NCBI GenBank assembly: GCA_036320915.1
Contig: JAXBDG010000015.1
Location: 1,542,140 to 1,606,139 of the forward strand
DNA from: Linnemannia elongata
Taxonomy: Eukaryota; Mortierellomycota; Mortierellomycetes; Mortierellales; Mortierellaceae
DNA: 64,000 nt
Reading direction: 5' to 3'
In this document: positions 48,622-64,000 of the stretch, in pieces
Layout of the letters: every line of letters starts with the position of its first letter
Position numbering within the stretch: the stretch's first letter is position 1
The notes under the pieces: generated by a model
Told to the model about the DNA's origin: nothing
What the model saw: the letters and a program-made list of their open reading frames with translations, nothing else
Database searches by the model: none
Program-made: the position numbers and the translations under genes

Positions 48622-50486
48622 CCATTTTTCGACTCCACTGTGCGAAGTGATAACTACAACAGCTGGTCCACTTTCTTTAATCTTAATTAATGGCAGTAGT
48701 TGTCAGTCATATATATACTGTATATCTTCATTGGTAGAGAACCTCAGATTCTCTCTCACCTTTCCTCTCTTCCAAATGTACATATCACACTTTCGTTGCC
48801 GAGAACGTGTTGGGGAATGAGCATATTAAGAGGGTATGGGGATGACCTCCTTAGGTTGGTGGACGAGACTGGATGCACAACCTGGACGACCATTGATGCT
48901 CAAGATACATGGCATGGCGTTTTTGAAAACTTGGATATCACCTTGCAAATTACATTTTGGCTGTATATATCAGGATGGAAATTAACCCATGCAAACCATG
49001 TGCTCCTTGTTAACGAGGTAATCCATGCTGTATTCTATCCCCGATAATACTTTACAAATATTATCCGCAAGTGTTGTGCTTTAGAGTCTTGAATGTCTAT
49101 AACCAGAAGTGTATGTTGCTTTGTAACCTTGACGGATAAAGGCGAGATGCGGGATACTCATGTTTATATCCTGCAAGTTTACGATGCCTACTACACCGAT
49201 AACTTAGTGGGCGATAAAACATCTTGCATACATATTCTCTACAGTTGACAAGGAATGATAAATAAGAAGGTCGTCACCTTGTGATGTGGAACGTCGAAAA
49301 AGCTGCACTTTTCTTTTTAGGGTTTTTAAGTATATCTGGCTCATCTTGCCGGTTCCGTGTACCGACCTTTAGTCTCACTACTCTTTCAAGCAGGTAGGGG
49401 TTTTTAGGGTATTTAAGAACACTTGGTGCACCTTGCCAGTCATGTACACCCAACGACTTCCAGTTAGAAAGTCCTCCTTCGCGACTTCTATCCCCCCCGT
49501 TCTTTTCAGGCAGCTAGTGCTCTTAGCAACAAAACTATCACCTTGTGGTGTGAAACGTCGAAAATGAAGCACTTTTTATTTTAGGGTTTTTAGGCATCTT
49601 GCCGGTCCCATGCCTTCACGATCATCAGCCTCACCGCTCTTAGGCTTTCATTTTAGGGTAATTAAGTACACCTGGTGCATCATGCTGGTTCCATGTACCC
49701 TACGACCGCGACTCCGAATGTCCTCCTCATCGACCTTTAACCTCACCACTCTTTTCAGGCAGCTAAGTTTTTTTGAGTTTTCTTTTAAGGGTTTTTAAGT
49801 ACACTTGGCGCATCTTGCTGGTTCCATGCACCTTTCGATGGTTGGTGCGAATGTCCTTCTTCGTGACCTTCAGTCTCATCGCGGTACACCATTTCTTCGC
49901 CTTCCCCTCAGTTCCTCTTCAGGCTCCTCTTTCTTCCTCTTCTTCTTCTCTACCCTTTCTACTCCACTTGTGTACCTATCTCCTGGATGAATGGATGGAT
50001 GGATTATCGCCTAGTGACGTAGCGAACAACGTTTTTATTTAATAGTGAGAAGAGAGAAGGAAGGCAGCACTGGTCCCCATCTGATCTAAGTTTGTCTGTT
50101 GGTCGCTCTGCTGGCCGCACACCGACCGGTGCCTTGGCATATCCGCCAATCTGCCTAACTGCGGATAGGACTTTGTTATAAAGCCTCCGTGACGATAGAG
50201 TGCTGTCGATAAATGAAGACTGAAGAGATTTCTCTCATTTACATTAAAGTTATCTTCTTCCGTCCGGATCCAGGGGTGGGTAACAATAGTTACGCGGCAC
50301 TGGACGCGCATGTTGTTCAGCGGATAAAACTCCTTTTCTCAAGGCGTGGAGTCAAAGTGCCTTTTACCACCGAGCCAGAGATTGCGAAAAAAGAGTGAGT
50401 TCTACCCATCTTCCAAATAGGAAAGTGAGGGCTAAGCTCGACTCCATCCATCGAGAAGCGCCTGCATTTCTTATTCCCAATTTTGG
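48622..50486. other. Intergenic, repeat-derived
   Basis: After the SGNH gene no host gene is seen. The middle part is a cluster of degenerate repeats (listed separately). Around 50040-50400 there is sequence of uncertain origin next to the gypsy relic, possibly part of it. Confidence 0.45.
49258..49895. repeat. Cluster of degenerate ~70-130 bp direct repeats
   Basis: At least five diverged copies begin with TTTTAGGGTTTTTAAG or a close variant (near 49316, 49408, 49581, 49652 and 49788). They continue with (C/T)TTGGTGCATCTTGCCGG, a TTCCATGTACC block, TCCTCCTTCGTGACC and CTCTTTTCAGGCAGCTA. A second block, CACCTTGTGATGTGGAACG, occurs near 49275 and again near 49540, hinting at a higher-order unit of about 265 bp. 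No coding capacity is evident. Confidence 0.7.
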
Positions 50487-51645
50487 TCATATGGCATTTG
50501 CTTCTCTGATGGCTGGCGTCAAAGTCGGGGGTAGATATAGGACCTCGTAAAATATATTTCTGTCTGTGCTAGGTGGCCAATAAAATCCATAGCACCGTAT
50601 GCTAGGGTCGGTCAGAGATAGGAAATGGCTGGAGGAGGCCAGTGGGCAATTGGTTGTTGTGCTTATTCCTTTGGCAAGACTCACAGGTGCGAACGCACGA
50701 CTGGGAATCCTTGGCCATGGTAGGCTAATAGGATCGATACCGAAGGTGGCCGTAATTTTACTAAAGCCAAACTGCTCAGCTATATCAGAGATATGGGCAT
50801 CATTAAAGATGCACGCCAGAAAAAGGTCTTGCATTTCACACAAAGCCATTAGCCAGGTGCTGCCAAAGCCCAGGATCCAACTGTACTGAGGTAGTGCTTA
50901 ACTCCCAATGATTTGACCTGCGGGATGGTGCATCAAGAACGACATTTTCGATGCCCTTTTTTTACTTTAAGATGAAGTTGCATTCCTGCAGTCACCATGC
51001 CTGGCAATGTGTGAAATTGGGTTGGGTCGGCAAGTGCTGGAAATCGCGTGATCGGTGTATACCATGAAATGAGAGACGTCGAGGCTACAGAAGCGCTAGG
51101 TCCTGGGGGGGTGTACGACTGCTAGCAGCTGAGTTGAGAGATTCTGGGAAGTAAAGCCACGGTGCGGGACTCGCCATGCTGATAGGTTTGAAAGAGAACT
51201 GCGCCGCCGAGACTCCGGTGAGAAGGTCTGGGTCGAAATCAGAAAAGCTGATGCTTTCCCGATCGCCTCGTTGAGAGTCGTAAACGCCACTTCCTGTTCC
51301 TAGATCAAGAAAAAGGAACGCCTTCGCCTAAAAGAGCATTTAACGGTAGGGTGATCGAGGCAAAGTTAGTGATGTACTAGTGGTAGAACTGTGCAAAACC
51401 AACAAATTTCTGAACATCTTTCGGCTTCTGGGGCAAGGCCTCTCGCGGATGGCACGGACGAGACCGCCACTCGTAAGGATTCCGTCCTTGCTGATGATAT
51501 GGCTGAGAAACTCTGTCTCCTGCTGCAAAGAGCACTTGCTAAGCTTGGCCGTTCTTACGCCGTTCCAACGGATTAGTGTCAGGACAGAGCGGAGGTGTTG
51601 GAGGTGTTCGGCCCCGGTGCGGGAGTAGATGAGAATATCATCCAA
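50487..51645 (-). mobile_element. Ty3/gypsy retrotransposon pol relic
   Basis: Minus-strand fragments appear in the correct pol order but in different frames. Reverse transcriptase (51645-51340) carries MDDILIYSRTGAEHLQHLRS, the palm motif and downstream helix of gypsy RT. An RNase H part (about 51290-51096) includes AFTTLNEAI and a frame-shifted GAVLFQ-type block. An integrase zinc-binding part lies near 50690 (CESCQRN) and continues to about 50487. Frameshifts, stops and missing segments show it is dead. No LTRs or gag were recognised. Its RT end adjoins a transposon terminus at about 51643. Confidence 0.8.
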
Positions 51646-51913: not shown

Positions 51914-52484
51914 GGGAGTCATCCGGGACTAGTATAGATAGGTGCTTCAAGGTGTGTGAGAGTATGCTGCATAGATTACCATATGTTTTAAAAAGGCGGT
52001 ACCGGGGATGGATGAGTTTAGGATAGAGGGGAGCGTACAGTAGTTCTAGGGAAAAGAAGTAGGCTCTGGGAGGTTGTGCTGCATGAAAGACCTCGAAGGG
52101 GGGGTTGTAGCTTTACTCTGGCTGAAGGGTCTCAACCCCCTGCCAAAGGATTTGCTCCTCTACCCTCTACTAGGGAGTCATCCGGGACTAGTATAGATAG
52201 GCGCTTCAAGGTGTGTGAGAGTATGCTGCATAGATTACCATATGTTTTAAAAAGGCGGTACCGGGGATGGATGAGTTTAGGATAGAGGGGAGCGTACAGT
52301 AGTTCTAGGTAAAAGAAGTAGGCTCTGGGAGGTTGTGCTGCATGAAAGACCTCGAAGGGGGGGTTGTAGCTTTACTCTGGCTGATGCCCTCAACCCCCCT
52401 TTGGTGTTATCCATTGCCGATGACCTACGGTATATGCATGATGTAAAGGTAACGAATGACAAATGCGGTATGGTAGACCAGGTA
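51914..52484 (+). repeat. Element 1 left inverted repeat with a tandem end duplication
   Basis: About 570 bp. It holds two copies of the terminus, at 51914 and 52171, each starting GGGAGTCATCCGGGACTAG. It is repeated inverted at 55801-56316, continuing at 62480-62535. Identity runs inward to about GGTATGGTAGAC, after which the two sides diverge. Confidence 0.92.
52357..52399 (+). other. Conserved G-run/C-run hairpin, element 1
   Basis: GGGGGGTTG pairs with CAACCCCCC around a ~24 nt loop that includes CTTTACTCTGGCTGA. A second version lies at 52098-52140 in the outer copy. The same design recurs in elements 2 and 3 with different stem bases that still pair. Confidence 0.75.
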
Positions 52485-52507
52485 AGTACAGGATATACAA
52501 AACAAAT

Positions 52508-53716
52508 ATGTCAAGCGGCAACGTTCCTGAAAAACTTCAAGATTTGTTCAGGGCGATTATTCAGGAGGAGTGGACCTTCTTGGATGATCCCTGGCCAATG
52601 TACCCAAAAACTCGTAGGGCACACCGGTCTGAGTTCAAGGTCATCAAGGGTATGCGTCACATGAAATTAGCGGTTATGTCCAAGCTGGGGGCTGTTGCGG
52701 TGTACTTCTTCCTGACGGTCCTGTGGAGTAAAGTATACTTCCCCGGTCCGTATAAGGCACTTGAAAAGGGTATTGCCTTCTTATACTTTTTTGTCTCTGG
52801 AGAATCCATGGAGTCCATGTCGGTGTTCATGCCCCGGTCATCCTTCTACGAGATCTTCCGCACGTTCTTCAAGGAGGAAAGGAGCCTGTTCAACAAGGAA
52901 ATGGCAAGGTGCTTCTCAACCATGTTTTCCACTCCAGAGATACGCATGCGATCGGCCAGATGGAGTAACCCAAAGATGTTCAAGCATGTAACACTGCTGC
53001 TGGATGGCCATGACACACGGGCAACCTACGGGGAGTTAAAGTCGGAGATGTACAGCTTTAAGTTCAGGAAGTCAGGCCTCCGCACACAAGTATGCATAGA
53101 CGTCAACAACATGGTGGTCTTTGTGTCCAAGTCCGAGTCATGTAAGAAACACAACGATGGTACCATGCTGGTTGACATGGGTGTGGCCAAAAGGATTCAT
53201 GAGGTGGACTGCATTGGCCTTGATGGTGGATACCCACAGCATATACCCAAGCTCCTGGAGAAAGAGGACACCCTGGATATTCGCAACTTTTGTTTTCCCA
53301 TACGTAAGCGCAATGGAAAGCCCTTGGATGAGGATGAGGCTACCTTTAATACGATGTTCGGAGGATTCAGGTCTATGGTTGAAAATACCTTTGGTGAGCT
53401 CGGATCCACCTTTGCCAAGTTCAACCATAAAGACGCCATCCGTACCACCGACAAGAGGGAGGTTAACATGATGTTGCGGTTGTGCTTTCTGCTGCTAAAT
53501 GTACGTAATATGTCCAACAACCTCAGCCTGGATATACTACCCCACCATATGGAATGGATAGAGGATGGATTCGACTATCCAACCACCAATAAGCCTGTCC
53601 TGCAGAACTCCGAGGTAGAGACTGTCCAAAATAGGCTACAGAATGGATCTGAACTACAGGAACTCCAGAACGCGTTCTTGGGAATGGACATGTCGGAGGA
53701 TGACGAGGAACTGTAG
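52508..53716 (+). CDS. Element 1 DDE transposase
   Basis: Intronless, 402 residues from ATG 52508; an in-frame ATG at 52463 would add 15 residues, but 52508 aligns with the start of the element 2 protein. The C-terminal half is an RNase H-like DDE domain of the DDE_Tnp_4/Harbinger-like type. The first Asp is in LLLDGHDTRATYG. The strand pair is MYSFKFRKSGLRTQVCIDVN with MVVFVSKS and HNDGTML. The second Asp is in IGLDGGYPQ. The Glu is in MVENTFGELGSTF after TFNTMFGGFRS. The N-terminal third contains DDPWPM and FPGPYKALEKGIAFLYFFV, shared with element 2. It should cut and join the inverted repeats. Its start lies about 24 bp inside the left inverted repeat, so that repeat probably contains its promoter. 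The Asp/Glu-rich C-terminus is shorter than in element 2. Confidence 0.85.
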   Translation: MSSGNVPEKLQDLFRAIIQEEWTFLDDPWPMYPKTRRAHRSEFKVIKGMRHMKLAVMSKLGAVAVYFFLTVLWSKVYFPGPYKALEKGIAFLYFFVSGESMESMSVFMPRSSFYEIFRTFFKEERSLFNKEMARCFSTMFSTPEIRMRSARWSNPKMFKHVTLLLDGHDTRATYGELKSEMYSFKFRKSGLRTQVCIDVNNMVVFVSKSESCKKHNDGTMLVDMGVAKRIHEVDCIGLDGGYPQHIPKLLEKEDTLDIRNFCFPIRKRNGKPLDEDEATFNTMFGGFRSMVENTFGELGSTFAKFNHKDAIRTTDKREVNMMLRLCFLLLNVRNMSNNLSLDILPHHMEWIEDGFDYPTTNKPVLQNSEVETVQNRLQNGSELQELQNAFLGMDMSEDDEEL

Positions 53717-53745
53717 GGCCTGATTTTTGTGGCAGCATGTACCAA

Positions 53746-53757
53746 GTTTTTAAAAAC
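53746..53757. terminator. GTTTTTAAAAAC palindrome between convergent genes
   Basis: It lies in the 52 bp between the stops of the transposase and the Rep-like gene. A perfect palindrome could serve 3' end formation from both sides; that role is inferred. Equivalents are at 55485, 56998, 58752 and 63739. Confidence 0.45.
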
Positions 53758-53768
53758 CTTACCTTACG

Positions 53769-55466
53769 TTACTCCTGGACCAGCTTACACTTCATGTCGT
53801 TCGTGCCTTTGGAGCGGACTATGCGTTCTGCAAGGAAGGTCATCTTTGGCACATGGTGGATTCTTACTTGGCCATTCGTTCCCCTATATTTTCCCCGCCA
53901 CCTTTCCCACAGGTTACAGAGGGACTTACCGGCTCTAACTCTGGTCCCACAGTCCATAATTATATGCCAGTACAAAGTCCCGCGAAACTTCTTTAAGCCT
54001 GCTGCAGCAATGGTATATATGCGACCTGGCTCAAGCACATTGTAGCCGGTTCCAAAGGCGGATGAATGTATACTCTGCATATGCTTAACATACTGCCCAT
54101 CATCGGATCTGCGCTCCACAAGGACAGCTAACGGTGCACTCTCCTTGTGGTGTCGCCTCTTTGGCCATCCAATGCGGATGTTGTCCACAGATACAATACC
54201 CATGTCGGCAAACTTATATACTTCGCGGTCGAACAGTGCGTATGAGGGGAACATACCCTTGGAACCACCTGGTACCAATGTTTTGGCCTTGCAGCCCGGC
54301 TCTCTCTCATACATCTTCTCCTTGGTGACCTCCACTGTACCATTCTCGCTAACTTTGGCCTCCACATAGTAGATGGGACGGTCGTTGAACGAGTAGTTGG
54401 CAACCAGGTGCATGGCAAGCGGTGCTGAAACTTTGGACCACATATAACCGTACTTCTTGCGGGTTGTAGAGTTCCACCAGTGGCAGTATGCAAAGACCTT
54501 GCTTCCAGGGATATACACCGCGACCATGGCCTTTATAAGCTCAGCACGTTCTATCCAGTGCTGTTCATAGCTGTAGTCAAACGTGGTGCAGCCGTCCAAA
54601 AGCCTACGCGCATCATCCATCCTATCTTGGTATACCGCCAAAGGGTGCAGCCTTGAGCCATAAAAGGTTAGCTCCAGCCGTGAAAGGCCATGATCCCTAT
54701 GGCGCAATAGAGTCCTGGTGAACTTCTCATCTGGATTGGCAACTATATCCTCCATCCTTGAGCCGAGACTCTTTCGCACATCCGCGCTTTCGAGCATCTG
54801 GACCAGCTTGTTATAGACCTTGCACCTGATATTTTGGGCATTGTCTGCAGATGCAAACCAGGTCACACAGTGGTCACCCACCCGTCCGCGATCGTTGACT
54901 ATCGTTGAAATGCCCTTAGCCTTCAAGTGCCTCTCCAAATAGGTCCGAGTTGATACATACCTGCAGTCATGGGTCATGTCGATGTCATGCAGGACAAGGT
55001 ACCGCTTCCGAAGGATAGGCAGGATGGCAGCCATGGCCATTACCACCTTTTTGGCACGGCAGTGGTATAGAGACACCTTGATAGAGACAAATCCGGCAGA
55101 GTATGGTCCATTGCTGTGCTCTTGTGCATGTGCGGTTTGGATGTCAGCAGGGATATACTCTTCGTCCAACAGAGTGCCACTATGCAGCGACTTGATGGAA
55201 TCGTAAGGTAGATCCGCCTTGCCAAATGCCTCACGTAAGTCAGCCATATATTTGCCAATGGACTTGCCCTTGACCTTTTCATCGGCATAGTTGACCGGAG
55301 CCCAAAAAACCATACTGTCACAGAACATCTTGGAGAACCGTGTGAACCCCTTGCGTTTGGTACCTCCAAGACGACCAAGGGGATGTACACATTTGCCAAC
55401 GTCGGCAAGGTTGTGCGTGTACTTATTGAGGATCTCGTTGATGATAGCTTCCTTTGACCGTGACAT
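53769..55466 (-). CDS. Element 1 Rep-like protein
   Basis: Intronless, 565 residues from ATG 55466. It is colinear over its whole length with the element 2 protein (57054-58748). Shared blocks in order are FSKMFCDSM, IGKYMADLRE, VLHDIDMTHDC (near 160), RCKVYNKLVQMLESADVRKS (near 215-235), SLGSRMEDIV, LSRLELTFYG (near 265), FAYCHWWNS (near 325), KKYGYMW, NYSFNDRPIYY, YEREPGC, GMFPSYA and VRAGKSL. The D-I-D-x3-D, then Y-N-K...E-S, then R-x-E-L series resembles rolling-circle plasmid initiators of the Rep_trans type, in which Asp-rich and YxK...RxE motifs frame the nicking site. The match is by pattern only. A host-independent role in copying or excision is an inference; a pure DNA-binding accessory protein is the alternative. 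The frame is intact. Confidence 0.7.
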   Translation of the reverse strand: MSRSKEAIINEILNKYTHNLADVGKCVHPLGRLGGTKRKGFTRFSKMFCDSMVFWAPVNYADEKVKGKSIGKYMADLREAFGKADLPYDSIKSLHSGTLLDEEYIPADIQTAHAQEHSNGPYSAGFVSIKVSLYHCRAKKVVMAMAAILPILRKRYLVLHDIDMTHDCRYVSTRTYLERHLKAKGISTIVNDRGRVGDHCVTWFASADNAQNIRCKVYNKLVQMLESADVRKSLGSRMEDIVANPDEKFTRTLLRHRDHGLSRLELTFYGSRLHPLAVYQDRMDDARRLLDGCTTFDYSYEQHWIERAELIKAMVAVYIPGSKVFAYCHWWNSTTRKKYGYMWSKVSAPLAMHLVANYSFNDRPIYYVEAKVSENGTVEVTKEKMYEREPGCKAKTLVPGGSKGMFPSYALFDREVYKFADMGIVSVDNIRIGWPKRRHHKESAPLAVLVERRSDDGQYVKHMQSIHSSAFGTGYNVLEPGRIYTIAAAGLKKFRGTLYWHIIMDCGTRVRAGKSLCNLWERWRGKYRGTNGQVRIHHVPKMTFLAERIVRSKGTNDMKCKLVQE

Positions 55467-55484
55467 GTTGTTAATAGATTCTTG

Positions 55485-55496
55485 CTTTTTAAAAAC
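55485..55496. terminator. CTTTTTAAAAAC block between small gene and Rep-like gene
   Basis: It sits in the 34 bp between the small gene stop and the Rep-like start. It has the same core as the blocks after every other element gene. It could be a 3' end signal or a TATA-like promoter for the next gene. Confidence 0.4.
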
Positions 55497-55500
55497 TCCC

Positions 55501-55782
55501 TTAGGTGGCCTTCAACTCAGTGCGCATAAGGTACTCACCAGCAGCTTCGTTGGTCAACAGTCCTTTCTCAGAGAGTTCACGTCGGATACCCTTGTATACC
55601 TTTTCCAACATCGAGTAGATAGTATGTGGACACCAGGTTTCACCAAAGTCAGGAGATTTAGCGCGGTGAATATCCACGAATGCATCAAGGTACACATACA
55701 TACAGGTCTCTAAGCGATGGTCCGTAATAAATTCAGCGACGACATCCTGTTGCAAAGATTTATGTGTAAGCGGAATAGGCAT
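55501..55782 (-). CDS. Element 1 small conserved protein
   Basis: 93 residues from ATG 55782. The frame is open upstream into the inverted repeat, but this ATG aligns with the starts in elements 2 and 3. The conserved core is QQDVVAEFITDHRLE, then CMYVYLDAFVD, a variable middle, YKGIRRELSEKGLLT and AAGEYLM. It looks all-helical, with no Cys/His metal pattern and no signal peptide. It precedes the Rep-like gene in all three copies with 34-72 bp between, so the pair may share a transcript. It starts about 19 bp inside the right inverted repeat. I do not recognise the family. A partner or regulator of the Rep-like protein or transposase is a guess. Confidence 0.75.
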   Translation of the reverse strand: MPIPLTHKSLQQDVVAEFITDHRLETCMYVYLDAFVDIHRAKSPDFGETWCPHTIYSMLEKVYKGIRRELSEKGLLTNEAAGEYLMRTELKAT

Positions 55783-55800
55783 TGTTGTTTTCTTTGGGGC

Positions 55801-56316
55801 ACCTTGTCTACCATACCGCCGATTTGTCATTCGTTACCTTTACATCATGCATATACCGTAGGTCATCGGCAATGGATAACACCAAAGGGGGGTTGAGGGC
55901 ATCAGCCAGAGTAAAGCTACAACCCCCCCTTCGAGGTCTTTCATGCAGCACAACCTCCCAGAGCCTACTTCTTTTACCTAGAACTACTGTACGCTCCCCT
56001 CTATCCTAAACTCATCCATCCCCGGTACCGCCTTTTTAAAACATATGGTAATCTATGCAGCATACTCTCACACACCTTGAAGCGCCTATCTATACTAGTC
56101 CCGGATGACTCCCTAGTAGAGGGTAGAGGAGCAAATCCTTTGGCAGGGGGTTGAGACCCTTCAGCCAGAGTAAAGCTACAACCCCCCCTTCGAGGTCTTT
56201 CATGCAGCACAACCTCCCAGAGCCTACTTCTTTTACCTAGAACTACTGTACGCTCCCCTCTATCCTAAACTCATCCATCCCCGGTACCGCCTTTTTAAAA
56301 CATATGGTAATCTATG
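55801..56316 (-). repeat. Element 1 right inverted repeat, inner part
   Basis: Inverted copy of 51971-52484. The outermost ~56 bp lie at 62480-62535 because element 2 inserted here. The internal end copy (GGATGACTCCC) is near 56102-56112. A hairpin equivalent lies at about 55885-55927. Confidence 0.9.
56312..56316. repeat. Target site duplication of element 2, left (CTATG)
   Basis: TAAT-CTATG directly precedes GGAATCGTCC. The second copy is at 62475-62479. The undisturbed target, TAATCTATGCAGC, is readable in the matching left inverted repeat as its complement. Confidence 0.93.
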
Positions 56317-56693
56317 GGAATCGTCCAGGGTCCAAATGGTCGTATAACCCATTAATTATCCACAGATGTTGTATGAACTGGTGGGGATACAAAGGGTTGT
56401 AGATTTTAAAAAGACTGCAGGAATAAAACGTACACATCCATAATAGATGGTAATGTCCAGTTGTAATGGAAAAAGAAACGGTAACGAAACAGTCCTAACG
56501 TATTTCCATTTGTTCACGCTGGTTAAATCAAGGTGTAAAGGGGGGTTGAAGTTTCAGAACGGCCGATGGTCTGACCCCCCACCTACAGCCTTTTCCATTA
56601 CACATACGCACTCTTGTAAAAACGTTCCACACCAGGCATTATCAAGGGTGTAATTGACGTTATCATGCATAGTTAAACCGCTGTCCTGCATAA
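56317..56693 (+). repeat. Element 2 left inverted repeat
   Basis: About 377 bp, nearly identical in inverted form to 60067-60442. It ends near CTGTCCTGCATAA. The outer half also matches the outermost array unit (62240-62474). Confidence 0.92.
56540..56580 (+). other. Conserved G-run/C-run hairpin, element 2
   Basis: GGGGGGT pairs with ACCCCCC around a loop with GTTTCAGAACGGCCGA. Its mirror in the right repeat is 60179-60219. In the array units the stem extends to GGGGGGTGTA/TACACCCCCC. Confidence 0.75.
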
Positions 56694-56714
56694 ATCATCA
56701 CTCACCCATTCATC

Positions 56715-56981
56715 ATGTCAACACGTTTAACTAAATCACGCCAGCAAGATGTTGTTGCTGATTTTATCTATGACAAAAAGCTGGAGATGTGCATGTTTGT
56801 CTACTTGGATGAATTCCTGGATTACCATCGCAAACTCTTTCCACAAGATGCCACAACATTCGGCACTGACGGTATAAAGAAATTACTTGAAGCATCGTAT
56901 CAGGCCATCCGTGAGAAAATACGCGAAGATGGATTGCTCACTGAGAAGGCAGCTGGCGAATACATGCGTAGAAAGAAGTGA
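56715..56981 (+). CDS. Element 2 small conserved protein
   Basis: 88 residues from ATG 56715, about 22 bp inside the left inverted repeat. It matches the element 1 and 3 homologues through RQQDVVADFIYDKKLEMCMF, VYLDEFLDYHRK and, at the C-terminus, EDGLLTEKAAGEYMRR. It is predicted helical by eye and ends in a basic cluster (RRKK). The Rep-like gene follows after 72 bp. Its function is unknown; its strict conservation of place next to the Rep-like gene suggests the two act together. Confidence 0.8.
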   Translation: MSTRLTKSRQQDVVADFIYDKKLEMCMFVYLDEFLDYHRKLFPQDATTFGTDGIKKLLEASYQAIREKIREDGLLTEKAAGEYMRRKK

Positions 56982-56997
56982 GAGGCCACATTGTGGC

Positions 56998-57009
56998 GTT
57001 TTTAAAAGC
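56998..57009. terminator. GTTTTTAAAAGC block between small gene and Rep-like gene
   Basis: It begins 16 bp after the small gene stop, with the same core as the other element gene boundaries. Its role is inferred. Confidence 0.4.
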
Positions 57010-57053
57010 TAAATTACAGATTTAACAACTACAAAGGCAAATCATATATACCA

Positions 57054-58748
57054 ATGCTCTCGCACGAGTCTCTCATCAACATTACGTTTAATCAGGTAGC
57101 ACATTTGCTATCCGATGTTGGCGCGCTCAAGTCCGTACCAGAAGGCAGCGAGGAACAAACCGGGTTTGCCAAGTTTTCTAAGCTATTCTGTGACTCCATG
57201 ATGTTTTGGGGCTTGTACAATTACGCCGATGACAGTACGAAAGGAACGGCGATTGGAAAGTACGTTGCTGAACTGCGTGATGCATTAAACCATACAAAGT
57301 TGGTCGTTGAGTCTGTAAAGTTAACCCACTCTGGCCAATTACGAGAGTGTGACGAAGATGTATACTTTTCGGAACAGATGCTTAGACGCTATAAAAGATC
57401 GTTTGATGGAAAAGTATTTACACCAGGATATATTGCCATAAAGGTGTCACTGGATTACTCCCGCGCAAAGAAAGTGGTACCCATTTTGGCCAATGTTTTG
57501 CCTCATTTACAAGAGAGTTTTATAGTATTGCACGACATAGATTTCGCCCATGATTGCAAGTACAATACAACTCGTGCAATCTTGCGGAAACTCCTTCGAG
57601 AAACCAATACGATGGAAGTTGTGGATGATCTACGCAAAGTTGGGCACCACTGCATTTCATGGAGGAACACGGCAGAGGACGCAAAAAATATCCGATACAA
57701 GGTGTATAACAAATTTGTACAGGTTATGGAGAGTGCCGAGGTGCGAAACAGTCTTGGTTCTCGCATGGAGGACTTGGTGGAGAAGGGAACCACATTTTCA
57801 CAGCGCGTCAAACGATACAGGAAGTATGGCTATACTCGTGTTGAACTTACCTTTTACGGTCCGGCTTTGAGACCCCTCTGGGAATACCAGGATGAAATGG
57901 ATGAGGTTAAAGCACTCCTACAAGATTGCCGCACATATAAATGTTCTTTCGAAGCACAATGGCAGGAACGAGCGAAATGCATTACGTCGATGGTGGCTGT
58001 ACATTTTCCAAGGGAGCAACTGTTTGCATATTGCCATTGGTGGAATTCTGTTACCTCCAAGAAGTATGGATATATGTGGAGGAAGGTTGACCCTGCCATT
58101 GTCCCGTTATTGCTGGCTAACTACTCCTTTAACGATAGACCTATATACTACATAAGCGCAAGTGTAAGCGACGAAGGCAACGTAGAGATTGGCGATACAG
58201 TAACATATATGCGAGAGCCAGGATGTACTGCCATTACATTAGTTCCTGGTTCGCAAAAAGGCATGTTTCCATCCAGGGAAGCGTCGCCTAATGGTGCGCG
58301 TAAGTTTTGCAAAGTAGGAATTGTCGAAGTTGACAATATCTCGATTGCCTGGCCAAAACGTGGACATAGAAGTACTAGCAATCCACTGGCAGAAATCTTC
58401 GAGTATGATGACGAGGACGATGACACGAATGTACTACACCTGAAGGCCATTCATGTGTCGCTATATATGGCAGACTACCAAATCTTGGAACCTGACACAG
58501 AGTATACCATTGTGGCAGCTGGTTACAAGGAATATCGCGGTGAACATCGGTGGCATTTTATCACAGCGTGTGGATTAAAGGTACGCGCTGGAAAATCTTT
58601 GGGCAAAATTTGGAGACAATGGCGGGCAGAACATGTTGATGGTACACAGAGAGCTGGTAGTGTTGATGGTGTTCCGTTCATGACATTTCGTGCTGTGAGG
58701 AAATCTCGCTCACATGGCATAGACGATATCAAGTGCGAGCATGTTTGA
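57054..58748 (+). CDS. Element 2 Rep-like protein
   Basis: Intronless, 564 residues from ATG 57054. Motif positions: FSKLFCDSMMFWGLYNYAD near 40, IVLHDIDFAHDCKY at 157-170, IRYKVYNKFVQVMESAEVR at 213-231, YTRVELTFYG at 260-269, FAYCHWWNSV at 324-333, KKYGYMW, NYSFNDRPIYY near 356, MREPGC and VRAGKSLGKIWRQWR near the end. The Asp triplet (DIDxxxD), YNK, and Arg-x-Glu-Leu order is shared with Rep_trans-type rolling-circle initiators; which Tyr would be the nucleophile is not clear. The conserved Trp/Tyr-rich middle has no helicase motif (no Walker A), so this is neither a Helitron RepHel nor a viral SF3 Rep. It is more AT-rich at codon third positions than the element 1 copy, which points to separate histories. 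Confidence 0.72.
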   Translation: MLSHESLINITFNQVAHLLSDVGALKSVPEGSEEQTGFAKFSKLFCDSMMFWGLYNYADDSTKGTAIGKYVAELRDALNHTKLVVESVKLTHSGQLRECDEDVYFSEQMLRRYKRSFDGKVFTPGYIAIKVSLDYSRAKKVVPILANVLPHLQESFIVLHDIDFAHDCKYNTTRAILRKLLRETNTMEVVDDLRKVGHHCISWRNTAEDAKNIRYKVYNKFVQVMESAEVRNSLGSRMEDLVEKGTTFSQRVKRYRKYGYTRVELTFYGPALRPLWEYQDEMDEVKALLQDCRTYKCSFEAQWQERAKCITSMVAVHFPREQLFAYCHWWNSVTSKKYGYMWRKVDPAIVPLLLANYSFNDRPIYYISASVSDEGNVEIGDTVTYMREPGCTAITLVPGSQKGMFPSREASPNGARKFCKVGIVEVDNISIAWPKRGHRSTSNPLAEIFEYDDEDDDTNVLHLKAIHVSLYMADYQILEPDTEYTIVAAGYKEYRGEHRWHFITACGLKVRAGKSLGKIWRQWRAEHVDGTQRAGSVDGVPFMTFRAVRKSRSHGIDDIKCEHV

Positions 58749-58751
58749 CAA

Positions 58752-58763
58752 GTTTTTAAAAAT
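58752..58763. terminator. GTTTTTAAAAAT block between convergent genes
   Basis: It lies in the 47 bp between the stops of the Rep-like gene and the transposase, at the same place as 53746-53757 in element 1. A bidirectional 3' end signal is inferred. Confidence 0.45.
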
Positions 58764-58795
58764 TTGTATAGATATATATGCATGAGTCTGTCTGT

Positions 58796-60055
58796 TCATA
58801 GACTGGCTACACTACTGTTATCGTCGTCTGCATTCGACATTTGTTCATCATCATCCGAGGCAACATCCAATCCCAAAAATTCTTCTTGCATTCTTTGCAA
58901 TTCCAATCCACTTTCCAGTTTGTATTGTACTGTGACAGTTTGTGTTAATTCTGGAGCAAGTTGCCTCTCGCGCGGATAGTCTACTCCTTCATCCATCCAC
59001 GCACGATGAGTTGGGATATCCTCGATGTCCAGTGCACGTACAAAGTTGCGAACATTTAATAAGAGGAGACAAAGGCGAAAAGCAAGATTAAATTCCGTTT
59101 TGCATGCTGTTCGTACAATCTCCTTGTTGTTAAACTTTTTAAATGTTTTCATGAGGTCACCAAACGTATCCTCTGACATGGATCGAAACCCACCAAACAT
59201 GGCATTAAAATTAGTTTCCTCCTCGTGAAGTGGCTGCATGCGTTTCTTGCGGACGGGAAAACAAACGTTATGCTCTTCCAACTGTTCTTTCTCTAGAAGA
59301 TCAGGTATTTGCAGTGTGTATCCACCATCAAGGGCAACACAGTCCATGCTGCCGATCTTTTTTCCAATGCCCATCTCTAGCAGCATTTTGCCATCGTTGT
59401 TATCACGGCATGGTGCTGATTTGGATACGAAGAGTACCATTCCATTGGCATCGATAGCCACTTGTGTTCTCAAACCTGATTTCTTGAGCTTAAACGAGTA
59501 CATTGCGGCTTTATCCTCTCCGTATGATGCTCGAGAATCATGACCATCTAGCATGATTGTAACATGCTTAAACATTGGTGGATTTTTCCAGTTAGACGTT
59601 CGAATGCGAATCTCCAAAGACGAAAACATAGATGCAAAACAGCGTTTGATCTCCTTGTTAAACATCGCACGCTCCGCCTTGAGGAAGGTGCTGTATATGA
59701 CATGGAAGGTGGACTTTGGCATGTATTGCGACATGGAATCCATAGTCTCCCCAGCGACGAAAAAGTACAGGAATGCAATGCCTTTCTCCAGCAAGTTAAA
59801 TGGCCCAGGGAAATAATGCTTACCCCATATTTTAGTCAGGAAAAAAAACACCGGGATGGGACCAAGTCGCTTCATCAACACGGCTTTCATGTCCTGTATT
59901 CTCTTGATTTGCTTAAACTCTGAACGGTGAAACGTCTTGATCTTTGGGCACATTGGCCATGGTTCATCAAGGAATGCCCATTCATCCTCCAGTAGACCGT
60001 CAAACAGTCGTACAAGTTTTTTTGGCATGGGCTTGTCTCCAAATGTTGTCTCCAT
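58796..60055 (-). CDS. Element 2 DDE transposase
   Basis: Intronless, 419 residues from ATG 60055; an in-frame upstream ATG at 60094 lies within the inverted repeat. Candidate catalytic residues are Asp near 170 (IMLDGHDSRASYG), Asp near 243 (ALDGGYTLQI) and Glu near 295 (RSMSEDTFGDLM). Between them are MYSFKLKKSGLRTQVAIDAN and NNDGKMLLEMG, the usual strand and loop of DDE_Tnp_4-type domains. The N-terminal region (DEPWPMCPK; FPGPFNLLEKGIAFLYFFV) is shared with element 1 and may bind the ends. It has an Asp-rich C-terminal extension (SDDDEQMSNADDD) longer than in element 1. Its start is about 12 bp inside the right inverted repeat. Confidence 0.88.
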   Translation of the reverse strand: METTFGDKPMPKKLVRLFDGLLEDEWAFLDEPWPMCPKIKTFHRSEFKQIKRIQDMKAVLMKRLGPIPVFFFLTKIWGKHYFPGPFNLLEKGIAFLYFFVAGETMDSMSQYMPKSTFHVIYSTFLKAERAMFNKEIKRCFASMFSSLEIRIRTSNWKNPPMFKHVTIMLDGHDSRASYGEDKAAMYSFKLKKSGLRTQVAIDANGMVLFVSKSAPCRDNNDGKMLLEMGIGKKIGSMDCVALDGGYTLQIPDLLEKEQLEEHNVCFPVRKKRMQPLHEEETNFNAMFGGFRSMSEDTFGDLMKTFKKFNNKEIVRTACKTEFNLAFRLCLLLLNVRNFVRALDIEDIPTHRAWMDEGVDYPRERQLAPELTQTVTVQYKLESGLELQRMQEEFLGLDVASDDDEQMSNADDDNSSVASL

Positions 60056-60066
60056 GATGTTAAAAC

Positions 60067-60442
60067 TTATGCAGGACAGCAGTTTAACATGCATGATAAC
60101 GTCAATTACACCCTTGATAATGCCTGGTGTGGAACGTTTTTACAAGAGTGCGTATGTGTAATGGAAAAGGCTGTAGGTGGGGGGTCAGACCATCGGCCGT
60201 TCTGAAACTTCAACCCCCCTTTACACCTTGATTTAACCAGCGTGAACAAATGGAAATACGTTAGGACTGTTTCGTTACCGTTTCTTTTTCCATTACAACT
60301 GGACATTACCATCTATTATGGATGTGTACATTTTATTCCTGCAGTCTTTTTAAAATCTACAACCCTTTGTATCCCCACCAGTTCATACAACATCTGTGGA
60401 TAATTAATGGGTTATACGACCATTTGGACCCTGGACGATTCC
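60067..60442 (-). repeat. Element 2 right inverted repeat, first copy
   Basis: Inverted match of 56317-56693 with few changes (for example GTACATTTTATT here where the left repeat has the complement of GTACGTTTTATT). It ends in GGACGATTCC at 60442 and is followed directly by the array. Confidence 0.92.
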
Positions 60443-62474
60443 CATATACACCTTTTTTACACAATGGTTGTAGTTTTAGCCGTACAATTACCCCCCACTG
60501 GAATCCATTACATACCATACTTTTTTTGTATTTCCACAAATGCTACCACTATTTTAGCATACATGTAGGTGGGGGGTGTACCCCCTCGGCCGTTCTGAAA
60601 CTACACCCCCCCTTTACGCCTTGATTTAACTAGCGTGAACAAATGTAAACATGTCAGCACTCTTTCGTTACCATTTCTTTTTCCATTACAACTGGACATT
60701 ATGGTCTATTATGGATGTCTACCTTTTATTCCTACAGTCTTTTTAAAATCTACAACCCTTTGTATCACCACCAGTTCATACAACATCTGTGGATATTTAA
60801 TGGGTTATACGACCATTTGGACCCTGGACGATTCCCATATACACCTTTTTTACACAATGGTTGTAGTTTTAGCCGTACAATTACCCCCCACTGGAATCCA
60901 TTACATACCATACTTTTTTTGTATTTCCACAAATGCTACCACTATTTTAGCATACATGTAGGTGGGGGGTGTACCCCCTCGGCCGTTCTGAAACTACACC
61001 CCCCCTTTACGCCTTGATTTAACTAGCGTGAACAAATGTAAACATGTCAGCACTCTTTCGTTACCATTTCTTTTTCCATTACAACTGGACATTATGGTCT
61101 ATTATGGATGTCTACCTTTTATTCCTACAGTCTTTTTAAAATCTACAACCCTTTGTATCACCACCAGTTCATACAACATCTGTGGATATTTAATGGGTTA
61201 TACGACCATTTGGACCCTGGACGATTCCCATATACACCTTTTTTACACAATGGTTGTAGTTTTAGCCGTACAATTACCCCCCACTGGAATCCATTACATA
61301 CCATACTTTTTTTGTATTTCCACAAATGCTACCACTATTTTAGCATACATGTAGGTGGGGGGTGTACCCCCTCGGCCGTTCTGAAACTACACCCCCCCTT
61401 TACGCCTTGATTTAACTAGCGTGAACAAATGTAAACATGTCAGCACTCTTTCGTTACCATTTCTTTTTCCATTACAACTGGACATTATGGTCTATTATGG
61501 ATGTCTACCTTTTATTCCTACAGTCTTTTTAAAATCTACAACCCTTTGTATCACCACCAGTTCATACAACATCTGTGGATATTTAATGGGTTATACGACC
61601 ATTTGGACCCTGGACGATTCCCATATACACCTTTTTTACACAATGGTTGTAGTTTTAGCCGTACAATTACCCCCCACTGGAATCCATTACATACCATACT
61701 TTTTTTGTATTTCCACAAATGCTACCACTATTTTAGCATACATGTAGGTGGGGGGTGTACCCCCTCGGCCGTTCTGAAACTACACCCCCCCTTTACGCCT
61801 TGATTTAACTAGCGTGAACAAATGTAAACATGTCAGCACTCTTTCGTTACCATTTCTTTTTCCATTACAACTGGACATTATGGTCTATTATGGATGTCTA
61901 CCTTTTATTCCTACAGTCTTTTTAAAATCTACAACCCTTTGTATCACCACCAGTTCATACAACATCTGTGGATATTTAATGGGTTATACGACCATTTGGA
62001 CCCTGGACGATTCCCACCAGTTCATACAACATCTGAGGATAATTAATGGGTTATACGACCATTTGGACCCTGGACGATTCCCATATACACCTTTTTTACA
62101 CAATGGTTGTAGTTTTAGCCGTACAATTACCCCCCACTGGAAAACATTACATACCATACTTTTTTTGTATTTCCACAAATGCTACCACTATTTTAGAATA
62201 CATGTAGGTGGGGGGTGTACCCCCTCGGCCGTTCTGAAACTTCAACCCCCCTTTACACCTTGATTTAACCAGCGTGAACAAATGGAAATACGTTAGGACT
62301 GTTTCGTTACCGTTTCTTTTTCCATTACAACTGGACATTACCATCTATTATGGATGTGTACGTTTTATTCCTGCAGTCTTTTTAAAATCTACAACCCTTT
62401 GTATCCCCACCAGTTCATACAACATCTGTGGATAATTAATGGGTTATACGACCATTTGGACCCTGGACGATTCC
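60443..62474 (-). repeat. Tandem array of the element 2 terminus, 393 bp period
   Basis: Every unit ends in CATTTGGACCCTGGACGATTCC. Ends fall at 60835, 61228, 61621, 62014, 62081 and 62474, that is five units of 393 bp plus one 67 bp partial unit. The first four are practically identical and belong to a variant of the terminus (TTAACTAGCG, GTCAGCACTCTTTCG, GGATATTTAATGG). The last unit is a mosaic: array-like on its inner side and identical to the element's own repeat on its outer side (from about 62240). Short open frames in the array repeat unit by unit and are not genes. Confidence 0.95.
60571..60611 (-). other. Hairpin in array unit (repeated each 393 bp)
   Basis: GGGGGGTGTA at 60571-60580 pairs with TACACCCCCC at 60602-60611, a 10 bp stem around CCCCCTCGGCCGTTCTGAAAC. 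Copies follow at +393 steps. Confidence 0.75.
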
Positions 62475-62479
62475 CTATG
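62475..62479. repeat. Target site duplication of element 2, right (CTATG)
   Basis: It follows GGACGATTCC and continues as CTATGCAGCATACTC, the outer part of the element 1 inverted repeat. Confidence 0.93.
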
Positions 62480-62535
62480 CAGCATACTCTCACACACCTT
62501 GAAGCGCCTATCTATACTAGTCCCGGATGACTCCC
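62480..62535 (-). repeat. Element 1 right inverted repeat, outer part
   Basis: Complement of 51914-51969, ending in GGATGACTCCC; separated from its inner part by element 2. Confidence 0.9.
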
Positions 62536-62796
62536 ATTGGGTATGTTGAAGGAAGGCCTCCACAACCCGCCATACCCAGAGCATTCAAGATGGGCCTATG
62601 ATACCAGCAAAAGCTAGTTCCAATACATGTCAGGGGAGGTGCTCAGAGACTGCACTGCAGAGCCAAGAGACATCTCCAAATACACCTCGAATGACCAAAG
62701 GGGGGGTGTAAGCATCGGCCAGTGGAAAACTACACCCCCCCCAAACCACCATTTGCCTATCCTTTGCACCACCACCCATATAATCCACCTCCTCTT
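62536..62796 (-). repeat. Inverted end of an element 3-family copy (relic)
   Basis: The complement of this stretch matches the element 3 left end, from about GTAAGAGGAGGTGG through the hairpin (62701-62742) and TTTTGCTGGTATCATAG to GCCCATCTTGAATGCTCTG and GCGGGTTGTGG. It is cut at its outer side exactly where element 3 begins. With 51643-51913 it may form the two ends of one older, gene-less copy. Confidence 0.7.
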
Positions 62797-63387
62797 AGGC
62801 AATCGTCCACATCCCTAATACATGAGGAAGCACCATAGGAGTGGTCGATCGTGTATAATATCAGGCAACTTTTAAAAAGCATGGATACAGGAGGCAGAGG
62901 ATTTGTATAGATGGTAGTGGTGGGTAAGAGGAGGTGGATAATATGGGTGGTGGTGCAAAGGATAGGCAAATGGTGGTTTGGGGGGGGGTGTAGTTTTCCA
63001 CTGGCCGAGGGCGCACACCCCCCCTTGAGAGATTCCACCTATAACCCCCCACCTAGGCAATCGTCCACATCCCTAATACATGAGGAAGCACCATAGGAGT
63101 GGTCGATCGTGTATAATATCAGGCAACTTTTAAAAAGCATGGATACAGGAGGCAGAGGATTTGTATAGATGGTAGTGGTGGGTAAGAGGAGGTGGATAAT
63201 ATGGGTGGTGGTGCAAAGGATAGGCAAATGGTGGTTTGGGGGGGGGTGTAGTTTTCCACTGGCCGATGCTTACACCCCCCCTTTGGTCCATTCGAGGTGT
63301 ATTTGGAGATGTCTCTTGGCTATGCAGTGCAGTCTCTGAGCACCTCCCCTGACATGTATTGGAACCCGCTTTTGCTGGTATCATAGG
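62797..63387 (+). repeat. Element 3 left end with tandem duplication (258 bp period)
   Basis: Unit 1 starts at 62797 and unit 2 at 63055, both AGGCAATCGTCCACATCCC. They stay almost identical through the G-run hairpin and then differ: unit 1 has GGCCGAGGGCGCACACC and unit 2 GGCCGATGCTTACACC. Confidence 0.9.
63240..63281 (+). other. Conserved G-run/C-run hairpin, element 3
   Basis: GGGGGGGTGTA pairs with TACACCCCCCC (11 bp) around a 20 nt loop GTTTTCCACTGGCCGATGCT. The unit 1 version is at 62982-63024. Confidence 0.78.
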
Positions 63388-63449
63388 CCCATCTTGAATG
63401 CTCTGCGTTGGCGGGTTGTGGACGTCGCACTGGTAACCAATATATCATC

Positions 63450-63719
63450 ATGCCTGTTTCCCATGAAAAGTCTTTCCAGCAGGATGTTGTCGCCGAATTT
63501 GTAGATGATCATCGTCTTGAGTACTGTATGTTTGTTTACCTCGATGCATTCCTCGATACCCATCACGCTAAGTATCCTGACCTTGTGGACAGATGGGATC
63601 CCTATGCTATGTATGAGATGTTAGAGCAGGTTTACAAAGGTATCCGCCTAGAGCTCCTAAAACGCGGACTTCTTACAAATAAGGTAGCTGGTGAGTATGT
63701 GATGAAACGATCCCAGTGA
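63450..63719 (+). CDS. Element 3 small conserved protein
   Basis: 89 residues from ATG 63450, beginning MPVSHEKSFQQDVVAEF. It is closer to the element 1 protein than to the element 2 one: shared DDHRLE (TDHRLE there), VYLDAF, LEQVYKGIR and GLLTN. The C-terminus is AGEYVMKRSQ. The frame is complete. The Rep-like start follows after 52 bp, with a GTTTTTAAAAA block between them. Its function is unknown, as for the other two copies. Confidence 0.8.
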   Translation: MPVSHEKSFQQDVVAEFVDDHRLEYCMFVYLDAFLDTHHAKYPDLVDRWDPYAMYEMLEQVYKGIRLELLKRGLLTNKVAGEYVMKRSQ

Positions 63720-63738
63720 GCCATGGTTGGCCTGAGTG

Positions 63739-63749
63739 GTTTTTAAAAA
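63739..63749. terminator. GTTTTTAAAAA block between small gene and Rep-like gene
   Basis: It begins 19 bp after the small gene stop. Same position and core as in elements 1 and 2. Confidence 0.4.
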
Positions 63750-63771
63750 TTTGCCCAAACACACTTCAACC

Positions 63772-64000
63772 ATGACAAGATCAAACGAGTCCATTATCAA
63801 CGAGGTTTTTAAGAAGTACAGCGGTAATTTGGCTGACTTTGGTAGGCAGTCCTGTTCCCGCAGAGAGAGTAGACAGGGCTTTGCAAAGTTTTCCAAGATG
63901 TTTTGCGACAGCTTGGTTATGTGGGGACTCTACAATACCTTGTCTGAGGACACCAAGGGAGTAACCATTGGGAAGTACATGGCAGAGTTGCGTGAGCTTT
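63772..64000 (+). CDS. Element 3 Rep-like protein, 5' part
   Basis: ATG 63772 opens a frame that runs to the window edge (76 codons). It is colinear with the N-termini of the other two: MTRSNESIINEVFKKY, then GFAKFSKMFCDSLVMWGLYN, then IGKYMAELRE. It is closest to element 1 (MSRSKEAIINEILNKY). The catalytic-type motifs would lie beyond the window. Confidence 0.85.
   Translation, partial: MTRSNESIINEVFKKYSGNLADFGRQSCSRRESRQGFAKFSKMFCDSLVMWGLYNTLSEDTKGVTIGKYMAELREL

Follow-up and report, generated by a model that had tools for sequence, protein, structure and literature searches.

The right end of contig C7 of the fungus Linnemannia elongata carries DNA transposons that combine a DDE transposase with a protein resembling a replication initiator (the Rep-like protein) and a small conserved protein (S). 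The stretch analysed, hereafter the window, comprises 64,000 nucleotides (C7:1542140-1606139). Its right edge coincides with the end of the contig (1606139 bases), in a genome of 51.1 Mb and 32 contigs. That the element and its three-gene set are real is virtually certain. The elements probably represent a PIF/Harbinger-related transposon lineage of the Mortierellaceae, equipped with an acquired nicking initiator of the Rep_trans kind and a small helical protein. Considered as a transposon, the element is a novel variant of PHIS-type (PIF/Harbinger-related) elements. The relevant features of the window are as follows.

51914..62535, plus strand: family A element, termini GGGAGTCATCC...GGATGACTCCC; interrupted by a family B element and lying within family C terminal-repeat sequence.
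51914..52464, plus strand: left terminal inverted repeat of A, with one additional tandem unit at 259-bp spacing.
52463..53716, plus strand: A transposase, 417 amino acids; DDE_Tnp_4, E 3.6e-9.
53769..55466, minus strand: A Rep-like protein, 565 amino acids.
55501..55830, minus strand: A small protein S, 109 amino acids; the conserved portion begins near 55785.
55822..56315, minus strand: right terminal inverted repeat of A, split by the B insertion and continuing at 62476-62535.
56313..56315: target duplication TAT, 3 bp, left of B.
56316..62475, plus strand: family B element, GGGAATCGTCC...GGACGATTCCC, nested in A; the empty site is present in other A copies.
56316..56670, plus strand: left terminal inverted repeat of B.
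56715..56981, plus strand: B small protein S, 88 amino acids.
57054..58748, plus strand: B Rep-like protein, 564 amino acids; predicted Rep_trans-like fold, conserved D47, D163, Y218 and E264.
58796..60094, minus strand: B transposase, 432 amino acids; DDE_Tnp_4, putative triad D183, D256 and E308.
60089..62475, minus strand: right terminal inverted repeat of B, the outer units tandemly repeated at 393-bp spacing.
62476..62478: target duplication TAT, 3 bp, right of B.
62574..64000, plus strand: family C sequence to the contig end, with terminal-repeat units followed by S and the beginning of the Rep-like gene.
63450..63719, plus strand: C small protein S, 89 amino acids; frame open from 63408.
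63772..64000, plus strand: C Rep-like protein, first 76 codons, truncated by the contig end.

In A and B, the genes for S and the Rep-like protein run in the same direction and the transposase gene is convergent. This is the order that a first-pass annotation of the window had described at this place. In C, only S and the start of the Rep-like gene are present; the transposase is not visible because the element is cut by the contig end. The same annotation took the three for copies of one family. Three elements are indeed present, but B is nested in A, and the identities of 49-56% rule out a single family (Rep-like protein, 49% between A and B and 56% between A and C; transposase, 54% between A and B). 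Thus, A, B and C are distinct families. The flanks of the family A element in the window (ATA / ATT) hold no target duplication.

The association of the genes was assessed in 211,027 bases of DNA, made up of 15 fetched stretches and the last 16 kb of the window (16 stretches in all). These stretches were picked for holding matches, so counts within them are no random sample; genome-wide match counts refer to pieces and represent lower bounds. In the 16 stretches, 23 Rep-like matches covered more than 90% of the query. A convergent transposase accompanied 22 of these, and 20 of the 23 had both an upstream S and a convergent transposase. Two of these exceptions fall where a fetched stretch ends: the Rep-like gene with no transposase (on C27) and, among the three lacking S, the one on C32. 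Genome-wide, a convergent transposase was found within 300 bp of 40 of the 46 Rep-like matches of at least 1.2 kb, and the gap was 54, 74 or 98 bp in 30 cases.

Could these genes be chance neighbours? A Harbinger-like transposon might lie beside host Rep-like and small genes and have been spread with them by segmental duplication; that subtelomeres share junctions speaks for such a process. Conversely, two copies inside chromosomes (C28:617685-621625, 3941 bp, and C1:2474929-2478871, 3943 bp) enclose all three genes within 314-bp terminal inverted repeats and AAT target duplications, and the linkage recurs in two other Mortierellaceae. Adjacent gene numbers are carried by a transposase and a Rep-like protein in Haplosporangium (BGZ52_005333/BGZ52_005334), and by S and a Rep-like protein in Mortierella claussenii (EDD11_009646/EDD11_009647). 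The interior copies and the linkage (40/46 genome-wide, 20/23 in hand) speak against a chance neighbourhood, which we regard as highly improbable. The first-pass proposal of a mobile element with these three genes is upheld.

The Rep-like protein has named relatives in Mortierella, Linnemannia, Actinomortierella, Haplosporangium, Podila and Gryganskiella, all of which we take to be Mortierellaceae. Those of the transposase come additionally from Apophysomyces, Rhizomucor, Gamsiella and Dissophora. Co-occurrence on one contig in other genomes was scored by matching contig sizes, using 107 of 108 Rep-like rows (the remaining one had no length), 120 of 137 transposase rows and 60 S rows. The Rep-like protein and transposase coincided in 12 cases (shifted mean 2.7, maximum 9), the Rep-like protein and S in 5 (0.6, maximum 3), and the transposase and S in 4 (0.9, maximum 3). 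By eye, the source label also agreed in 11 of the 12 Rep-transposase cases; the case of size 2370 disagreed. This test is weaker evidence than the two named neighbour pairs.

The genes show the signature of purifying selection. Comparing B with two B-like copies, dN/dS was ~0.17-0.21 for the Rep-like gene and ~0.12-0.15 for the transposase gene. For S, the ratio was 0.10, obtained between A and C only and at a dS of 2.4, which is near saturation. S is predicted to fold as four helices (pLDDT 89.8; five models 63-90). No fold in the PDB matched it below E 3.5, and in a Pfam search with 43 S proteins every row had an E of 0.021 or more.

Both transposases match PF13359 (DDE_Tnp_4) over the cut-off, with E 3.6e-9 for A and 3e-12 for B. 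A match of the B transposase to the IS5 family was sub-threshold. We aligned 100 of 120 listed homologues, chosen by length, with the two transposases of the window. Among these 102 sequences, D183 and D256 are present in 100% and E308 in 98%; the putative triad was assigned by this conservation. Three distant transposases (P0194, P0183 and P0187) carry a C-terminal chromodomain; these three were scanned, and others appear in precomputed annotation. The chromodomain might direct insertion to heterochromatin. Two of the three chromodomain homologues are on contigs of 3383 and 5721 bp, and Rep-bearing contigs of the same sizes exist.

Target duplications were sought at 14 end pairs (nine A and five B) assembled by hand; partnerless termini and all family C ends were left unpaired. 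Six pairs are flanked by 3-bp duplications (TTT, AAT, AAT, CGT, ATT and TAT). Two pairs on C9 have swapped flanks: once the two left flanks are matched with each other, and likewise the two right ones, the duplications ACA and CAG appear, the signature of an inversion involving two B copies. The remaining six pairs have no duplication, presumably due to recombination between copies. Empty sites were located in other copies for 6 of 8 insertion events, namely those inside other elements. Harbinger elements prefer TWA targets, and their inverted repeats begin with GG. The eight duplications listed here reveal no target motif and do not follow the TWA preference. All three A pairs of 4200 bp (C8:8963-13162, C17:820-5019 and C29:1266-5465), which have one extra end unit, are without duplications; a different insertion route or recombination could be responsible. 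Of the single-unit A copies of ~3940 bp, two have duplications and the third (C1:4489481-4493421) does not.

Since the transposase matches PF13359 and the duplications are of 3 bp, as in PHIS elements, the new transposon superfamily that the first-pass annotation thought possible is not supported. A new DDE superfamily was rejected on these grounds, and so were the 5-bp duplications anticipated in that annotation, those found being of 3 bp. A Myb/SANT second protein was also looked for. Neither Rep-like protein of the window gave a Pfam match of this kind, and 81 Rep-like members gave just one weak match to SANT_DAMP1 (E 0.055) among the 25 of 55 families listed. Myb/SANT is absent from all nine Pfam families matched by 43 S members.

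A related family, D, differs in its gene content. Its copies on C16 (L024:4386-7841 and L024:8359-10452) encode a 433-amino-acid DDE_Tnp_4 transposase of 47% identity. In the copies read, the neighbour of the transposase gene encodes, in the same direction, a 671-amino-acid protein with internal repeats and weak zinc-finger matches below cut-offs; its frame is shorter in the second copy. Neither a Rep-like gene nor the hairpin described below is close to these C16 copies. Genome-wide, none of 9 family D transposase matches is paired with a Rep-like gene. The pairing is thus a trait of a lineage and not general to related transposases, because family D lacks it. The first-pass annotation had named a transposase that usually occurs alone as a finding that would undo its reading; within the families studied, 39 of 44 full-length non-D transposases have a Rep-like partner, and family D stands apart.

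The Rep-like protein is likely to be a Rep_trans-like enzyme, judging from its modelled fold and conserved residues. The AF2 model has a pLDDT of 93.4, and its best Foldseek matches in the PDB are two bacterial rolling-circle initiators of the Rep_trans kind (4cwe, E 5.6e-4, and 4cij, E 3.8e-3), both with low TM-scores. In BFVD, an inovirus REP protein ranks 11 and G2P ranks 21. For an alignment, we took 79 of 108 homologues (length 480-600) and the two Rep-like proteins of the window. Among these 81 sequences, which range down to 28% identity, D47 (98%), D163 (99%), Y218 (100%), K220 (100%) and E264 (100%) are conserved, as is R262, each of the six being kept in 98-100%. Their succession, and the strands on which they fall, correspond to motifs N', I, III and IV of Rep_trans; on this basis, D47 (motif N'), D163 (motif I) and E264 (motif IV) were assigned as the putative metal triad. 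Y218 lies in a predicted strand (213-219). In motif III, YxKxxE, the final E is replaced by an invariant Q223. By eye, there is a likeness to RLDLAFD / IRIYNK / WRVEIEL of pT181 RepC. An HUH or Helitron-type Rep was rejected: by eye, no HUH triplet occurs among the invariant columns of the 81 sequences, and Y218 is in a predicted strand, unlike the helical YxxK/H motif of that class.

Several observations weigh against assignment to Rep_trans. The low TM-scores, and ribosomal rows in the structure search, lowered our confidence. TBP and ribosomal chains stand above Rep in the VIA list, and residues 296-564 are barely covered. In the 81 sequences, RxD of motif I is replaced by DxD at 161-163, and motif II (T/SxY/ExG) is unrecognisable. 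Searching the entire genome with the PF02486 profile, up to E 10, gave nothing, and hhalign gave P 0.22. PHROGs (searched with five Rep-like proteins) and NCBIfam (searched with both Rep-like proteins and the S of B) returned only chance-level rows. A viral origin was considered separately and rejected: six peptide patterns taken to viral_contigs detected nothing related to the Rep-like protein of B. The 'Rep-like' label of the first-pass annotation agrees with fold prediction and active-site residues and not with sequence profiles.

The Rep-like protein might instead be a catalytically inert DNA-binding stand-in for the Myb/SANT protein of Harbinger; it would bind the hairpin or its duplex form and recruit the transposase with no nicking. 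Such a role would fit the hairpins at both ends, where a partner of the transposase would bind. According to the available text of PMC12730594, Nuwa families of Harbinger pair a transposase with a Myb/SANT DNA-binding protein. The fold, too, is shared by the DNA-binding protein TBP (structure search; accessible part of PMC13107129). Binding alone need not preserve the tyrosine and acidic residues at 98-100% in 81 sequences, and we consider an inert partner rather unlikely. A Rep_trans-like enzyme remains our preferred interpretation.

The terminal repeats of the Rep-bearing families contain a hairpin, built of a run of G, the loop GGC(C/T)GA and a run of C. Those of the window are as follows.

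52098..52140, plus strand: A hairpin, outer type (GGCTGA|AGGG).
52357..52399, plus strand: A hairpin, inner type (GGCTGA|TG).
55887..55929, minus strand: A hairpin, inner type, right end.
56540..56580, plus strand: B hairpin, inner type.
60179..60219, minus strand: B hairpin, inner type, right end; five outer-type hairpins come after it, in tandem units to 62251.
63238..63281, plus strand: C hairpin, inner type; the outer type begins at 62980.

In the 211 kb the pattern was counted 81 times, compared with 0.4 for mononucleotide shuffles; the 81 are copies of related elements and hence not independent. A similar pattern gave 306 overlapping matches genome-wide, against 0 for the reversed pattern. 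The matches listed (C1 to early C9) fall within or next to element loci; C4 and C5 contribute none. Folding energies of the eight hairpin types are -8.7 to -13.6 kcal/mol (z -1.9 to -3.3). Of 25 non-D transposases, 22 have a hairpin no more than 204 bp away; the distances for the other three are 471, 879 and 2001 bp. For 7 of the 9 family D transposases, those in hand, the nearest hairpin is 2.5-7.4 kb away.

Two hairpin forms exist: an inner form, followed by TG, and an outer form, followed by RGGG and found chiefly in the tandem end units. In each of the families A, B and C, the forms diverge right after GGCYGA, and either right arm pairs with the left. A search of junctions at GGCYGA, covering 79 left arms, recovered two kinds of continuation, together with small variants, one mosaic of both kinds and two arms in which the C run is incomplete. 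The common break point could be explained if the Rep-like protein nicked and joined DNA there. Free strand transfer would leave further kinds of junction, of which none was seen, so old inheritance of the two forms is equally possible.

That the hairpin is the site of the Rep-like protein is a fair inference, with the balance tipped slightly in its favour. Family D differs in its transposase too, so the hairpin is not assignable to the Rep-like protein from the D comparison alone. The hairpin could be the binding site of the A/B/C-type transposase. Its occurrence in both terminal repeats, as is the case for transposase sites, would agree with this, and the 47% identity of the D transposase confounds the presence of a Rep-like protein with transposase type. 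Conversely, G/C hairpins with two alternative pairing right arms resemble replication origins. Furthermore, a DNA hairpin serves as the origin for Rep-SNJ2, a distant relative of Rep_trans (PMC13107129, in the text available). We think a transposase site unlikely, and favour recognition of the hairpin by the Rep-like protein.

Copies of the elements are concentrated near chromosome ends. No more than 40 kb separates 67 of 79 Rep-like matches and 77 of 98 transposase matches from a contig end, at 18 ends; all 64 contig ends, at 40 kb each, make up at most 5.0% of the genome. The telomere repeat is the 10-nt TTTTTTAGGG (contig ends, e.g. L017:1-528 and the end of L033); TTAGGG was ruled out, TTTTTTAGGG being found instead. 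At 9 of 10 element-bearing telomeric ends, element sequence begins 55-194 bp from the telomere repeats; at the tenth, the distance is 626 bp. There are several different element-telomere junctions, and one telomere-side junction is common to C7 and C16. No telomere repeat was found at the right end of C7 or the left end of C8, so not all contig ends are telomeres. The left end of C3 has a telomere and no Rep-like or transposase match. As exceptions, single copies occur in the interior of C1 and C28, arrays in that of C1 and C12, and fragments in that of C12 and C17.

This distribution may reflect telomere targeting. An account in which the pile-up results from survival and ectopic recombination, with no targeting, and in which tandem units arise by unequal recombination with the Rep-like protein uninvolved, is in our view evenly balanced between true and false. 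In keeping with survival, the two clean single copies with AAT duplications are inside chromosomes (C28 and C1), the swapped flanks of the two B copies on C9 amount to recombination between copies, and C7 and C16 have their telomere-side junction in common. Furthermore, 8 of 9 family D transposase matches, without a Rep-like gene, are likewise near contig ends. The proximity of element sequence to the telomere repeats, through several junctions, argues the other way.

The interior arrays are C1:4478207-4494063 and C12:1820862-1849473, and several pieces on C12 have stops. Among the exact four-unit telomere repeats listed, none is on C1; the arrays may mark old fusions of chromosomes or be misassembled. 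Contigs C1, C2, C6, C12, C13, C15 and C30 have starts without telomeres and with CT-rich CACTTTTTTTTCTCTCTG-like sequence (first 60 bases). In the window, the array of elements adjoins a reverse-transcriptase fragment (51340-51645, minus strand; RVT_1, E 3.7e-5, under the curated cut-off), and degenerate direct repeats with telomere-repeat-like TTTTTAGGGTTTTTAAG (49274-49878).

These features suggest how the element might work. The transposase would carry out a cut-and-paste step. The Rep-like protein would nick the hairpin loop through its tyrosine, and the nick would act as a primer from which the element or its ends are copied by strand displacement. Such copying could yield both a higher copy number and the tandem end units. 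S may bind or regulate the end complex. Replicative copying by the Rep-like protein is possible, though we lean a little against it. More speculative, and on balance unlikely, is that this is the first eukaryotic Rep_trans-type initiator in a dual-engine element. Here the transposase would insert and the nickase would copy from terminal hairpin origins, with rolling-circle-like multiplication by which chromosome ends were colonised and perhaps rebuilt. If the Rep-like protein is indeed a Rep_trans-like enzyme, its presence in fungal transposons would bring this type of enzyme to eukaryotes and unite two unrelated DNA-breaking enzymes in a single element. The protein and hairpin form a directly testable pair, and the elements are a natural system for understanding how DNA transposons come to chromosome ends.

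In titles and the starts of abstracts of the open-licence PMC literature (subscription papers, bioRxiv and Repbase lying outside this set), we recognised no Rep-like gene in a DDE transposon. Nor did the open-licence titles and abstract starts reveal a telomere-associated DNA transposon in Mortierellaceae.

Compared with PHIS elements, those described here are alike in their DDE_Tnp_4 transposase, 3-bp duplications and inverted repeats beginning GG. They are unlike them in having a Rep-like protein and S, no Myb/SANT protein found and no TWA target, and also in their long terminal repeats (314-495 bp), tandem units, hairpin and pile-up at chromosome ends. ISL2EU elements encode a DDE transposase and a YqaJ nuclease (exonuclease-type) and generate 2-bp duplications. 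They too are PHIS elements with a second nuclease gene, whereas the second protein here resembles a tyrosine nickase. Among Harbinger relatives, the canonical 3-bp duplication gives way to 0, 2 or 3 bp, and HarbingerS (SET domain) and PHISTA (TET/JBP dioxygenase) are lineages with an extra gene (PMC12730594, available text). The acquisition of a gene is shared with the present elements; theirs, as far as that text goes, is a chromatin- or DNA-modification enzyme and not a replication initiator. MoTeR and FoTeR are, in the available portions of PMC12857005 and PMC7367193, telomeric retrotransposons of fungi. They are similarly mobile at fungal chromosome ends, whereas the elements here are DNA transposons adjoining telomere repeats. 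Finally, the Rep-like protein is like Rep_trans proteins (PF02486; pT181-type plasmids and inoviruses) and archaeal Rep-Arvir in the fold suggested by Foldseek and in the order and type of catalytic residues. It also shares an association with a DNA hairpin, as for Rep-SNJ2 (PMC13107129, available part). Unlike Rep_trans, it has no PF02486 match, altered motifs I-III and an extra C-terminal half (about residues 310-564). In the same part of PMC13107129, Rep_trans-like enzymes are described from bacteria and, distantly, archaea, and a fungal transposon is outside that description; the Rep-like protein here sits in a eukaryotic DDE transposon.

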